A program made the translations under genes and the position numbers. DNA of 64,000 nucleotides, from NCBI GenBank assembly GCA_021816765.1, contig JAKAXB010000008.1, positions 1-64,000 of the forward strand, in the 5' to 3' direction. Below the pieces are notes generated by a model. The model was given only the letters and a program-made list of their open reading frames with translations, searched no databases and had not been told where the DNA came from. The first letter of the stretch is position 1, and every line of letters starts with the position of its first letter. The DNA is from Natronospirales bacterium (GTDB taxonomy: Bacteria > Pseudomonadota > Gammaproteobacteria > Natronospirales > REEB76). Positions 10,704 to 15,266 of this stretch are shown piece by piece.

Positions 10704-11066
10704 ATGCAATCAGCCGCCCCCTGGGTTCTACCCGTCAGCCGTGATCACCCGGCTGCGGGCGGCGGCATGTTGACGCGCCTGCGGCACCGGCCCTGGTTCC
10801 GCTGGCTGGCGCTGTTTGCATTGTTGTGCGCTATCGGGTTGTACTCCCTGGACGCCAACCATCAGCACCGCAGTCAGGCCGGCGAACTGCTGTGCCCCGT
10901 CTGCCATGTCATCGCCCACGGCGCCCTCGATATCCTGACCCCCACATTCAATCCGTTGCCCAGCGTCGGCATCGGGTATTTCCTGAGCTTCTCACCGCAC
11001 CAGACTTCTCTCCCGCCGCACCGTTTCGCGGTCAAACCCCAGTCCCGCGCCCCGCCCGCCCGCTAA
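10704..11066 (+). CDS. Small membrane protein with HxH and CPVC-H-H motifs, DUF2946-like
   Basis: This protein of about 120 residues has one membrane segment (WFRWLALFALLCAIGLYSL) followed by ANHQHRSQAGELLCPVCHVI and an AH pair. The HxH plus CxxCH cluster just outside the membrane looks like a metal site. The arrangement resembles the DUF2946 family, often found beside copper genes, but the match is by pattern only. The start is uncertain: ATG at 10704 or at 10767, neither with a good ribosome site; the later start still includes the membrane segment and cysteines. A perfect 8-base hairpin (11081-11099) lies just after the stop but lacks a T-run. It precedes the barrel and copper genes on the same strand. 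Confidence 0.55.
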   Translation: MQSAAPWVLPVSRDHPAAGGGMLTRLRHRPWFRWLALFALLCAIGLYSLDANHQHRSQAGELLCPVCHVIAHGALDILTPTFNPLPSVGIGYFLSFSPHQTSLPPHRFAVKPQSRAPPAR

Positions 11067-11229
11067 CTCCACGCGCAACGCACCGGAGTTCCTCCGGTGA
11101 CACGCGCTTCGTTGTCACACTCCGCATTCCGGACGCGGCCCATATACCGCCCGGCAACGCGCTGTGCGCATACCCGAACCCATGATATTTGCGTGCCACA
11201 TTCATGCTCGGCACGCAGGGAGCAGGTGA

Positions 11230-12225
11230 ATGAAAGTCTGGAATTGTATGACTGCAAACCGGCAAGCGTTGACTCCGGACTATGCCGCCGGCACATCGGC
11301 TCTGACCGCAACCGGGAAATATTGTGCTGTGCACCGCCGTGTGAAATCCTCCGGAGCGCGCGGCTGGGGCGTGATGCTGTTCACCGTGGCCGCACTCCTG
11401 CCGGCCGCCGCCGAGGCGCACGCCATTGTCGGCATGCGCCTGTTTCCCGCGACGCTCAGCTTCGATGATCCCGGCGTCGCCGCGGAACTGCCTCTGAATT
11501 TCAGTTCCATCCATACCGGTAACGGTGTACAGGATACTTTCTCGATGGCCTATGCCCAGCTCCTCACCAAGAAGTTCGGCCTGGTGGTCAGCGGGAATTA
11601 CCAGCAACTGGTGCCGCAGATCGGCCCCAGCCAGAGCGGCTGGGACAATTTCACCGTGGCGGCCGCCTACCAGCTCTACAAGAATGACACCGACGAATCC
11701 ATCGGCATGTTGCAGCTCGCCGACACCCTCGGTGGCACCGGCAGCCGCACCATCGGCACGCCGTATTCCACCTACACGCCGGAGTTTGCCTTTGGTCAGG
11801 GGTTCGGCTTCCTGCCGTACAAGCTGCGCTACCTGCAACCCTTCGCCCTGACGGGCGCAGTCTCGGAGAGTTTCCCGACGAATTCGGCGGCGCCGCGGAC
11901 GTTCAACTGGGCGCTCTCGTTCCAGTACAGCATCCCTTATCTGCAAAACTTCGTGAAATACGTGGGCATCAAGGCGCCGTTCAACAACATGATACCGATC
12001 GTCGAGATCCCCATGCAGACCTGTCTGGACGCGGCCTGCACGGCACGCACCACCGGCTACATTGATCCGGGAGTGATCTGGATCGGTCATTACTTCCAGT
12101 GGGGCGTGGAACTGCAGGTGCCGACCAACCGGGCCAGCGGCAACCGTGTGGGAGTCCTCTTCGGAGTGGATTTCTACTTCGACGATCTCTACCCCCACAG
12201 CCTCGGCGCACCCATTTTCAACTGA
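11230..12225 (+). CDS. Outer-membrane beta-barrel candidate in the copper cluster
   Basis: This 331-residue protein is not assigned to a named family. A hydrophobic stretch (GVMLFTVAALLPAAAEA) followed by HAIVG looks like a signal peptide with cleavage before the histidine. The mature part is rich in alternating aromatic strands (FALTGAVSESF, WALSFQYSIPY, GHYFQWGVELQVPTN, VGVLFGVDFYF) as in outer-membrane barrels, and ends with an aromatic strand region. The ATG at 11230 has GGGAG seven bases upstream, but would leave about 45 residues before the hydrophobic core; a GTG at 11341 or ATG at 11374 would give a normal signal peptide. A hairpin (11190-11217) precedes the ribosome site. It is 20 bases upstream of copC, so it may act with CopC/CopD at the outer membrane. 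Confidence 0.65.
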   Translation: MKVWNCMTANRQALTPDYAAGTSALTATGKYCAVHRRVKSSGARGWGVMLFTVAALLPAAAEAHAIVGMRLFPATLSFDDPGVAAELPLNFSSIHTGNGVQDTFSMAYAQLLTKKFGLVVSGNYQQLVPQIGPSQSGWDNFTVAAAYQLYKNDTDESIGMLQLADTLGGTGSRTIGTPYSTYTPEFAFGQGFGFLPYKLRYLQPFALTGAVSESFPTNSAAPRTFNWALSFQYSIPYLQNFVKYVGIKAPFNNMIPIVEIPMQTCLDAACTARTTGYIDPGVIWIGHYFQWGVELQVPTNRASGNRVGVLFGVDFYFDDLYPHSLGAPIFN

Positions 12226-12245
12226 GGTCAATCAGGAACATCATC

Positions 12246-12620
12246 ATGAAAACCCAATTCGCACGCCGCCTCCTTGCAGCCGGGCTGTTCGTGCTCGCCT
12301 GCGGGACCGCCGCCGCGGTCTCGGCGCACGCCTTCCCGGACAACTCCTCACCGCACGTGGGCGCCAGCGTGAGTCCCGCTCCCAAACAAGTGAAGATCTG
12401 GTTCAATGCCGATATTGAACCGTTGTTCTCGACGCTCATCGTCAAGGATTCAAACGGCAACCAGGTGAGCATCGGCAAGGGTGCCATTCCTTCCGGCCAG
12501 ACCGCGCTGCTGGTGACCCAACTCCAACCGCTGCCTCCCGGTCTGTACGCCGTGTACTGGAGCGTGATTGCCCGCGATGGCCATCACACCGAAGGGCGCT
12601 GGTATTTCACAGTCAAATAA
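12246..12620 (+). CDS. copC: Periplasmic copper-binding protein CopC
   Basis: This 124-residue protein has a signal peptide ending near VSAHAFPD, so that a histidine becomes the first mature residue, as needed for the Cu(II) site of CopC. The second part of that site is in the C-terminal ARDGHHTEGRWYF, which supplies Asp and His. The fold signature APKQVKIWFNADIEPLFS and VYWSVIARDGH are typical. The methionine-rich Cu(I) loop of plasmid CopC is absent, as in most chromosomal forms. It binds copper and passes it to CopD, encoded 12 bases downstream. Alternative YobA-type naming would mean the same fold. Confidence 0.9.
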   Translation: MKTQFARRLLAAGLFVLACGTAAAVSAHAFPDNSSPHVGASVSPAPKQVKIWFNADIEPLFSTLIVKDSNGNQVSIGKGAIPSGQTALLVTQLQPLPPGLYAVYWSVIARDGHHTEGRWYFTVK

Positions 12621-12632
12621 CGGAGACGCACC

Positions 12633-14159
12633 ATGCATCCGCTCTACATCACGTTCACCGCCATTGATGTTTTCGCCACCGTGCTGACGCTCGGCGTGCT
12701 CGCCTGCGGACTGTGGGTGGTGCCGCACGAAGCCGCCGAAGCCTTCCACCGGCCGCTGTGGCGCATGTTCGGCGTATCGCTCGCGCTGCTCACCCTGAGC
12801 AGCGTGCTGATCCTGCTGTCCAGAAGCCTGGAGATGAGCGGCGGACCGTTGTCGGCCTTGCCCGGCGTGGTACCGATGGTGCTTTCCGGCACGCATTACG
12901 GCCGTGTTTGGTGGGTACGGCCGCCGCTGCTGTTGTTATTGTGGATTGCCTGGATCGGCGGCCGGCGTTACCGCAATACCCGGGCCCTGGGCTGGGTGAT
13001 GTTCGCGGCCGCCGCCATCATCGCCTTCACCCGCAGCGAGACCGGGCATCCGGCTGACCACGGCGACTTCACCTTTGCGGTGTGGGTGGACTGGCTGCAT
13101 CTCATGGCCGCGGGTCTGTGGATCGGCAGCCTGTTCGGCATGACGCTGGTCATCTTTCCGCGGCTGCGCCGTCACCATCCGGATCACCCGGTGCTCGCCG
13201 CGGACATCTTCCAGCGGCTTTCCACCCTGGCGGGCCTGGCGCTGGCGCTGATTCTCGTCACCGGCATCTATACCGCGTGGAAGCAACTCGGCGCCTGGCC
13301 CGTCTTTGTCACCACTTCCTACGGCCGCACGCTGCTGGTGAAACTCTCGCTGGTAGCCATATTGATCCTGATCGGCGCCCATAACCGTTACTTCAAGCTG
13401 CCGCGCCTGCAGCAGGCGGCGGGGCGGGTGCGGCCTTTGCCCCGCTGGATCGCCTGGACCCTGCGCAAACCGGCGGCACCCGCCACAGCGGATGCAGTCA
13501 CCACCGCCCAGCGGCTGCGTGCCTGCACCCACGCGGTGAAAGCGGAGAGTCTGCTCGGTGTGGGCGTGCTGGTGGCCGCCTCGGTCCTGTTGCACGGTAT
13601 GCCGCCGGCGGCCATGAGCGCCATCCCCGCTTTCGGCGGCACCATGTCCATGGGCGGCACGTCGTCTTCCCTGTCCGTGCCGGATGCAGGCACGGCGTCC
13701 GCCGCCACAAGCGCGGCGTCACCCGCCGCCGCAGCCCCCGCGATGTTTGACTTCGGCGCGCCGGGGAAAGCGAGTGAGGTGCGCGCGACCCTGCGCATCC
13801 GTGCGCTGGACAGCATGCGCTTCGAACCCGCAGAGGTGCATGTGAAGCCCGGCGAAACCGTGCGCTTCGTGGTCACCAACCGCGGCAAGCTGGTGCACGA
13901 ATTCGTCATCGGCGATGCCAGGGAACAGCGGGAACACGAATTGGAAATGCAGAAGATGCCGGATATGCCGATGCACGATCCCAACGGCATCACCCTGCCG
14001 CCCGGAAAGACCCGTTCGATTATCTGGACCTTCCCGGACCGGCCCATGCGGGTGGAATACGCCTGTCACCAGCCCGGCCACTTCGCCGCCGGCATGGTGG
14101 GCCGGATTCTGGTGGGACAGATGCCGCGTAAAACCCCGGGGCCGCCAGCCAGACCGTGA
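12633..14159 (+). CDS. copD: CopD membrane protein fused to a C-terminal cupredoxin domain
   Basis: The first 330 or so residues form a CopD copper-transport membrane domain with about eight hydrophobic segments and conserved histidines (VDWLHLMAAGLWIGSLFGM). After a Gly/Ala/Ser-rich linker (about 340-375), a plastocyanin-like domain follows, with GETVRFVVTNRGKLVHEFVI and YACHQPGHFAAGM. The His, Cys, His and Met of a type 1 copper site are all present. A separate cupredoxin normally does this job, so the fusion would place a copper carrier or electron shuttle at the membrane exit. The start has GGAGA upstream. A weak hairpin (14201-14217) lies after the stop. Confidence 0.88.
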   Translation: MHPLYITFTAIDVFATVLTLGVLACGLWVVPHEAAEAFHRPLWRMFGVSLALLTLSSVLILLSRSLEMSGGPLSALPGVVPMVLSGTHYGRVWWVRPPLLLLLWIAWIGGRRYRNTRALGWVMFAAAAIIAFTRSETGHPADHGDFTFAVWVDWLHLMAAGLWIGSLFGMTLVIFPRLRRHHPDHPVLAADIFQRLSTLAGLALALILVTGIYTAWKQLGAWPVFVTTSYGRTLLVKLSLVAILILIGAHNRYFKLPRLQQAAGRVRPLPRWIAWTLRKPAAPATADAVTTAQRLRACTHAVKAESLLGVGVLVAASVLLHGMPPAAMSAIPAFGGTMSMGGTSSSLSVPDAGTASAATSAASPAAAAPAMFDFGAPGKASEVRATLRIRALDSMRFEPAEVHVKPGETVRFVVTNRGKLVHEFVIGDAREQREHELEMQKMPDMPMHDPNGITLPPGKTRSIIWTFPDRPMRVEYACHQPGHFAAGMVGRILVGQMPRKTPGPPARP

Positions 14160-14399: not shown

Positions 14400-15266
14400 T
14401 CACCTGGAGATATCTGCACGCAGACGCCAGTGCCTGACCTGCTGCACCAGCGTGATCACGCCGATCAGCAGTACCACCACCATGACCAGCAGGAAACCCA
14501 GATTCAAGTGGGCCAGATTGTGCACGCGCAAGCCGGTGGCTACTTCGAAATCAGCCCAGCCCGGCGCCACCAATCCGAACAGCCCGCCGGCGATGAATAC
14601 CAGCCCGCCCCATCCCAGGGTGCGTCCCGCCGTGGTCAGCGCCACTTCACGGATGGCCGTCGCCGGCAGTCCCAGGCGCAGCGTAAACCAGCCAAACAGC
14701 GCCCCCACGGCGGCCTGCACCACGGTAGTGCCCAAACCAAACAGGGCGCCGGGCACCCAGCCCCAGGCGGCACTGGGCATGGCTGGGGACAGTACCGTAT
14801 ACAGGATCAGTGCGAAGGCGCCGAAGCCGAATCCGGCGATCAGGCCGTGTACGGCCGGCATCCACAAGCGCGGTGCGCGCAACACACATCCGTCGCTGCG
14901 ACCGGCGCTGTGCGGTGTCCATAAATGCCAGATATGCCCGCCGAGCATGTGACGGCCGGCCAGCCACATGACCACGCCCACCACGATGTACACCACGTAA
15001 TTCAGCGCCGCGCTGGCGGTGAACCAGTGATCCAGCGCCAGATAGGCAAGTTCACTGGCCAGTGCGCGCTGCACAGTGAACGCCAGTGAGAAGATCAGGC
15101 CCGCCAGCAGGCCCTTGCGGGTGGAGTAGCTCCCCACGGCATAGCTGAATGTGATGGGCCAGGTGTGCTCGTCGGGCGTGATACCGTGAACGATGCCCAG
15201 CAGGAACGCGGTCATCATGGCCGCCTCCAGGGACAGGCCCGCATGGGGTGCCCACAGGTCAATCAT
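14400..15266 (-). CDS. NicO/UreH-like nickel-cobalt transporter homologue
   Basis: This 288-residue integral membrane protein has about seven hydrophobic segments. Near the N-terminus it reads GIVHGITPDEHTWPITFSYA, an HxxxxDEH motif like the H-x4-D-H metal motif of nickel/cobalt permeases, and further histidines occur in the loop GRHMLGGHIWHLWTPHSAG. Those traits point to the NicO/UreH/TauE-like group of transition-metal transporters; the substrate is not certain. The ATG has AGGGTG five bases upstream. It lies 27 bases after sppA on the same strand, so it may be co-transcribed with it, and it converges on copD. The position next to the copper cluster suggests a related metal role. Confidence 0.65.
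   Translation of the reverse strand: MIDLWAPHAGLSLEAAMMTAFLLGIVHGITPDEHTWPITFSYAVGSYSTRKGLLAGLIFSLAFTVQRALASELAYLALDHWFTASAALNYVVYIVVGVVMWLAGRHMLGGHIWHLWTPHSAGRSDGCVLRAPRLWMPAVHGLIAGFGFGAFALILYTVLSPAMPSAAWGWVPGALFGLGTTVVQAAVGALFGWFTLRLGLPATAIREVALTTAGRTLGWGGLVFIAGGLFGLVAPGWADFEVATGLRVHNLAHLNLGFLLVMVVVLLIGVITLVQQVRHWRLRADISR

Follow-up and report, generated by a model that had tools for sequence, protein, structure and literature searches.

Very little is known about how copper passes the outer membrane of bacteria; the handful of copper-specific transporters described so far depend on TonB, and entry is otherwise assumed to occur by diffusion through porins (PMC12914433). Among the described systems, the cruR-crtA(bfrG)-crpH(bp2921) operon of Bordetella pertussis encodes a copper importer, and its products support respiratory oxidases (PMC12914433, PMC13038864). 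CruR, a DUF2946 protein, is translated from an upstream open reading frame (ORF); copper is sensed by its CxxC motif and the ribosome is stalled by its C-terminal RAPP, the two being 45 residues apart, and in the presence of copper Rho terminates transcription in a long gap of 162 nt that bears a region with an excess of C over G (C>G bubble) (PMC9426467). Ribosomes have been shown to arrest most easily at RAPP and RGPP, and in vitro arrest was also seen with CruR itself (PMC12992588). Here, a related row of genes was analysed in a 64,000-nt stretch of DNA (the window; contig JAKAXB010000008.1, positions 1 to 64,000) from a Natronospirales bacterium. The row, cruR-barrel-copC-copD::copI, is probably a copper-repressed operon for copper import and delivery, in which a barrel outside the TonB class replaces the TonB-dependent transporter.

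ORF calls and family searches in the window confirmed the row as it had been described in an earlier reading of the letters alone (the sequence-only reading): four genes, all on the + strand, encoding in order a small protein with CPVC, a barrel candidate, CopC, and CopD joined to a cupredoxin. Like the Bordetella operon, the row begins with a DUF2946-like leader that has CxxC, a C-terminal RAPP, comparable spacing and gap and a C>G bubble, and its second gene encodes an outer-membrane protein (PMC9426467, PMC12914433, PMC13038864). The Bordetella operon continues with a TonB-dependent transporter and PepSY_TM, whereas the row here has a 12-stranded barrel and CopC/CopD.

The first gene had been taken in the sequence-only reading for a membrane component with a metal motif. 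A working membrane metal protein was rejected, because the CxxC/RAPP layout, the gap, the C>G bubble and the homologous loci favour a leader. Judged from these sequence features, the gene is very probably a regulatory leader ORF of the CruR type, through which copper would be sensed by ribosome stalling. The start at 10704 given earlier is one among several possible starts; 10767 was used, and the leader then spans 10767-11066 (+), with 99 aa and a hydrophobic, signal-like N terminus. The CPVC codons lie at 10893-10904 and the RAPP codons at 11046-11057, two residues ahead of the stop, with a spacing of 47 residues (45-48 in homologues). The gap between the leader and the ATG of the barrel gene is 163 nt (11067-11229). 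The C>G bubble, a candidate Rho-utilisation region (10819-11225, +), extends from the 3' two thirds of the leader into this gap. Its peak in the leader's 3' half (10993-11070) was the maximum C-G excess of the 64 kb, a value matched by 1.6e-5 of the 78-nt windows on both strands.

The intergenic gap folded somewhat better than shuffles (z -2.4). Right after the leader stop there is a hairpin at 11081-11099 (CACCGGAG-TTC-CTCCGGTG), which is retained in the genome G001 apart from a single loop-region change; it has no T run and is thus not a plain terminator. A promoter scan ahead of cruR gave no convincing site.

After removal of duplicate-genome loci, a leader with CxxC, 45 to 48 residues and RAPP or RGPP preceded the barrel gene at 59 of the 91 loci, ending with RAPP in 58 and with RGPP in one (L109). 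At 51 of these 59, the C>G bubble ranked among the highest 1% of its locus. At two loci (L054 and L057), the leader precedes a copI-barrel pair rather than the barrel directly. In L103 (Glaciimonas), a leader-like ORF 197 nt upstream of the barrel gene has CGYC and ends with QPPPSR instead of RAPP; this ending may represent an arrest sequence of a different kind, or else result from decay of the leader or from a frameshift. In G007, leader and bubble have been removed by one clean deletion of ~365 nt (L020:5690-6000), while the operon and the sequence at either end of the region were retained; the deletion provides a natural test case that is expected to lack copper control.

The barrel gene (11230-12225, +), counted from its annotated ATG at 11230, encodes 331 aa, and the ORF from this start is likewise open in G001 and G007. 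The AlphaFold model, built with 51 natural sequences, had 12 strands (pLDDT 88, pTM 0.81), in agreement with the barrel candidate of the sequence-only reading. Its closest solved folds were FapF and the COG4313 channel 4rl8 (Z 21-22), followed by KdgM/NanC (~17), and identity with the COG4313/FapF channels was ~11-12%. The barrel had no Pfam family above threshold, and a profile search against the sequences of solved structures gave nothing useful. Weak matches to PF13557 (Phenol_MetA_deg) were seen in 12 of the 51 members (best E 6e-4), the barrel of the window being unmatched. Two identities were rejected: CopB, since Pfam CopB (PF05275) had no match up to E 1 in the 51 members, and a TonB-dependent transporter, which has a 22-stranded barrel and a plug, compared with 12 strands and ~268 mature residues here.

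The N terminus of the barrel protein is a signal-like hydrophobic stretch, and the predicted mature start is the invariant His64 (codon 11419), the cut being read from the A-x-A pattern. This His directly follows the predicted cut in every member with a readable N terminus and is the sole invariant His of the family; the -1 residue is Ala in all except L103 (Thr). It opens a conserved segment ahead of strand 1, HAIxGxRxFPATLxxDDPGVxDE. The predicted 12 strands and a segment preceding strand 1 are shared with the COG4313/FapF channels, and in 4rl8 the initial ~14 residues fold into the lumen (PMC4493636). Unlike those channels, the barrel has an invariant His-led N terminus and is linked to copper genes instead of hydrocarbon or amyloid genes.

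This linkage was examined in a scan of genome contigs by barrel similarity alone, which gave 378 relatives. Among the best 80 of the 378, copC came next after the barrel gene in 75 of the 77 loci with sufficient downstream sequence, a count that includes some genomes reached by two routes and some close relatives; the same gene row thus exists elsewhere, with the barrel tied to copC/copD as the sequence-only reading required. A phylum-wide draw of 398 genomes, not selected by neighbours, contained five strong barrels besides that of the host, and copC came next after all five. The barrel family, present in 1-2% of this draw, is uncommon, yet its copC neighbour is nearly fixed, and the adjacency is not due to chance. 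The barrel-copC pair also occurs in annotated plasmid sequences from Nitrobacter, Robbsia, Caballeronia and Methylocystis; in most of these copD comes next, and the barrel is labelled as hypothetical. On the Robbsia plasmid, a true NicO-family nickel/cobalt permease (L013:3005-4066) is divergent to the leader-barrel-copC-copD row. No description of such a barrel in a copper row was found in open papers, which does not disprove its existence elsewhere.

The copC gene (12246-12620, +; Pfam CopC E 2.7e-18) encodes a protein with a predicted mature N-terminal His (SA|HAFP), a DGHH motif and a mature chain free of Met; the N-terminal His and the DxH pattern are kept in homologues. By these residues, CopC is assigned to the Cu(II)-only kind, without a Met-type Cu(I) site. 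The copD::cupredoxin gene spans 12633-14159 (+). Its permease part (residues 1-330; 12633-13622, +) matched Pfam CopD (E 3e-16) and NCBIfam CopD (3e-36) and had eight long helices in the model, with the invariant His139, Asp142 and His156 close to the predicted periplasmic face. By sequence, the Arg-rich loops lie opposite the C terminus, so the appended domain is expected to be periplasmic.

A disordered linker (residues 333-366; 13629-13730, +; pLDDT under 50) connects CopD with a CopI-type cupredoxin domain (residues 367-494; 13731-14114, +), which matched Pfam Copper-bind (E 2e-8) and NCBIfam CopI (E 1e-33). The NCBIfam CopI score of 116.7 bits was below the equivalog cut-off of 280, and the domain is therefore called CopI-type and not a CopI equivalog. 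The type 1 copper domain proposed earlier was borne out by a complete ligand set (His422, Cys478, His483, Met488). These His, Cys, His and Met ligands were kept in all 22 CopI-type domains compared, fused or free, a few rows of this set being the same genome fetched twice. The nearest solved folds were AcoP and auracyanin. The domain resembles the cupredoxin CopI of Rubrivivax gelatinosus in its type 1 ligands and in an insert rich in His and Met, here HELEMQKMPDMPMHD (PMC13308877, PMC7558416). The Rubrivivax protein is a stand-alone copper-stress protein adjoining copA, whereas the domain in the window is tethered to CopD and lacks the N-terminal His-rich stretch.

Comparison of homologous loci went beyond what the sequence-only reading had seen: by sequence, CopD has repeatedly been joined at its C terminus to one or another of several exchangeable copper-binding domains. 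In unfused members of the host genus, copI is a separate, convergent gene adjoining copD, and in L054 and L057 it is placed between leader and barrel. A sulfocyanin-like cupredoxin is joined to CopD in L050 and L056 (weak SoxE match in L050 only), and PCuAC is found at the same end in L064 (E 3e-24). YcnJ of Bacillus subtilis is CopC-CopD-YtkA, with the extra copper domain likewise on the extracytoplasmic C terminus of CopD; it supports oxidases under copper starvation, and YtkA contributes to Cta function (PMC13344008). The row here differs from YcnJ in a separate CopC, a cupredoxin in place of YtkA, an outer membrane with a barrel, and a leader peptide instead of YcnK. The repeated occurrence of unrelated copper domains at one end of CopD argues for a functional handover there.

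The CopD tree, constructed without duplicate-genome loci, requires five changes among four fusion states, two of them CopI fusion; the long-branch rows L012, L015, L071 and L111 are unsure. The fused clade (9 rows, support 99/98) was separate from the unfused members of the host genus, which probably reflects passage of the operon from one lineage to another or a greater age of the fusion. An inversion that fused the convergent copI to copD inside the host genus is contradicted by this placement.

A single aa3-type oxidase is encoded by the host, together with a Sco protein. Cox11 had no match in the host or G001 and is present in four members of the genus. On host contig C19, the coxA-coxC interval (L143:6822-7280) is left with no more than a fragment similar to the beginning of Cox11. 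That the fusion arose because Cox11 had been lost was rejected, as the fused G007 has Cox11, while the unfused G003 and G008 lack it.

The alternative route for copper uptake or delivery suggested in the sequence-only reading fits the evidence, because the leader is of the CruR type and the studied relative shuts a copper-import operon with copper (PMC9426467); what did not stand was the identity given to the first gene. Without copper, the ribosome would stall at RAPP and shield the Rho-utilisation region, and transcription would read through. With copper, the nascent CPVC would bind the metal, the stall would be released, and Rho would terminate transcription ahead of the barrel gene. The barrel would let copper, or a small copper complex, through the outer membrane. 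CopC would ferry periplasmic Cu(II) to CopD, which would move copper over the inner membrane, and the cupredoxin on the periplasmic end of CopD would accept copper, alter its redox state or pass it on, a step that would most likely serve oxidase assembly.

A copper-tolerance operon of the cop/pco kind is an unlikely alternative reading of the same row; the barrel would then take the place of CopB, CopC and CopD would handle excess copper, the CopI-type cupredoxin would replace the multicopper oxidase, and a CutF-like leader would activate with copper. The gene order here recalls that of the copABCD and pco resistance operons, in which the genes for an outer-membrane protein, for CopC and for CopD likewise adjoin one another. 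The row differs from them in that no multicopper oxidase (CopA) occurs in it, none of the 51 barrels matched CopB, CopC has no Met ligands, and the leader is CruR-like. CopI is a tolerance protein (PMC7558416, PMC13308877), the loss of the stand-alone form leading to copper sensitivity, and a Methylosinus copCD mutant did not reveal a critical role of copCD in copper uptake (PMC7558416); these two results keep tolerance alive as an explanation. CutF, a related DUF2946-like leader, has the opposite sign to CruR and activates with copper, with a CxxxC motif and a stem-loop covering the next start site (PMC9973294), whereas the leader here has the CruR set of CxxC, RAPP, long gap and C>G bubble. 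Since a DUF2946-like leader can thus act in either direction, the direction of regulation of this operon is inferred from the resemblance to CruR. The results on CopI, copCD and CutF weigh against copper-repressed import, as do several others: the DUF2946 match of the leader was slightly under the cut-off (21.2 bits vs a gathering score of 23.7; Pfam, E 5e-4), about one third of the loci have no recognisable leader, the close relative G007 has lost it, and COG4313 channels have been connected with hydrophobic cargo (PMC4493636).

The properties of these channels, which are implicated in the uptake of hydrophobic molecules and conduct ions poorly (PMC4493636), also bear on the cargo. It is rather doubtful that the barrel takes in copper bound in an organic complex, or some other small molecule of partly hydrophobic character, while copper ions use ordinary porins; apart from the N-terminal His, no histidine is invariant in the family, but that His is invariant, the copC linkage is nearly fixed, and the row has no catabolic genes. 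A similarly low probability is given to the tethered cupredoxin being an AcoP-like electron carrier that would reduce Cu(II) at the mouth of CopD or serve an oxidase, with CopC and CopD alone moving copper. Its type 1 site is complete, and its nearest folds, AcoP and auracyanin, are electron-transfer cupredoxins. However, relatives bear PCuAC, a copper chaperone that lacks such a site, at this end of CopD, and YcnJ bears YtkA there (PMC13344008), which argues for copper handling. An electron-carrying role is compatible with copper-repressed import and delivery and does not exclude it.

The row is flanked upstream by a threonine-dehydrogenase-like gene and downstream by convergent genes. One of the latter (14400-15266, -) encodes a polytopic membrane protein with HGITPDEHTW that resembles nickel/cobalt permeases and has no Pfam match; it also adjoins the operon in L019 and L020, which belong to the genus and carry the fusion.

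In the preferred reading, copper-repressed import and delivery, a small barrel is tied to copC and a copper-sensing leader, and since it is found in culturable Paraburkholderia relatives, with the row carried for example by P. fungorum and P. phenazinium (L073, L083), a TonB-independent route would be directly testable. That copper domains unrelated to each other have been exchanged at a single end of CopD hints at where CopD meets its partner. As a tentative extension, the barrel may be the first known member of a dedicated family of outer-membrane copper channels outside the TonB-dependent class, with the His-led segment binding Cu(II) at the lumen and passing it to CopC, whose own site is led by an N-terminal His, and then to CopD and the tethered, exchangeable periplasmic copper domain, all under one arrest peptide. 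If true, this would be a ligand-matched copper relay from the barrel through CopC and CopD to the tethered domain.

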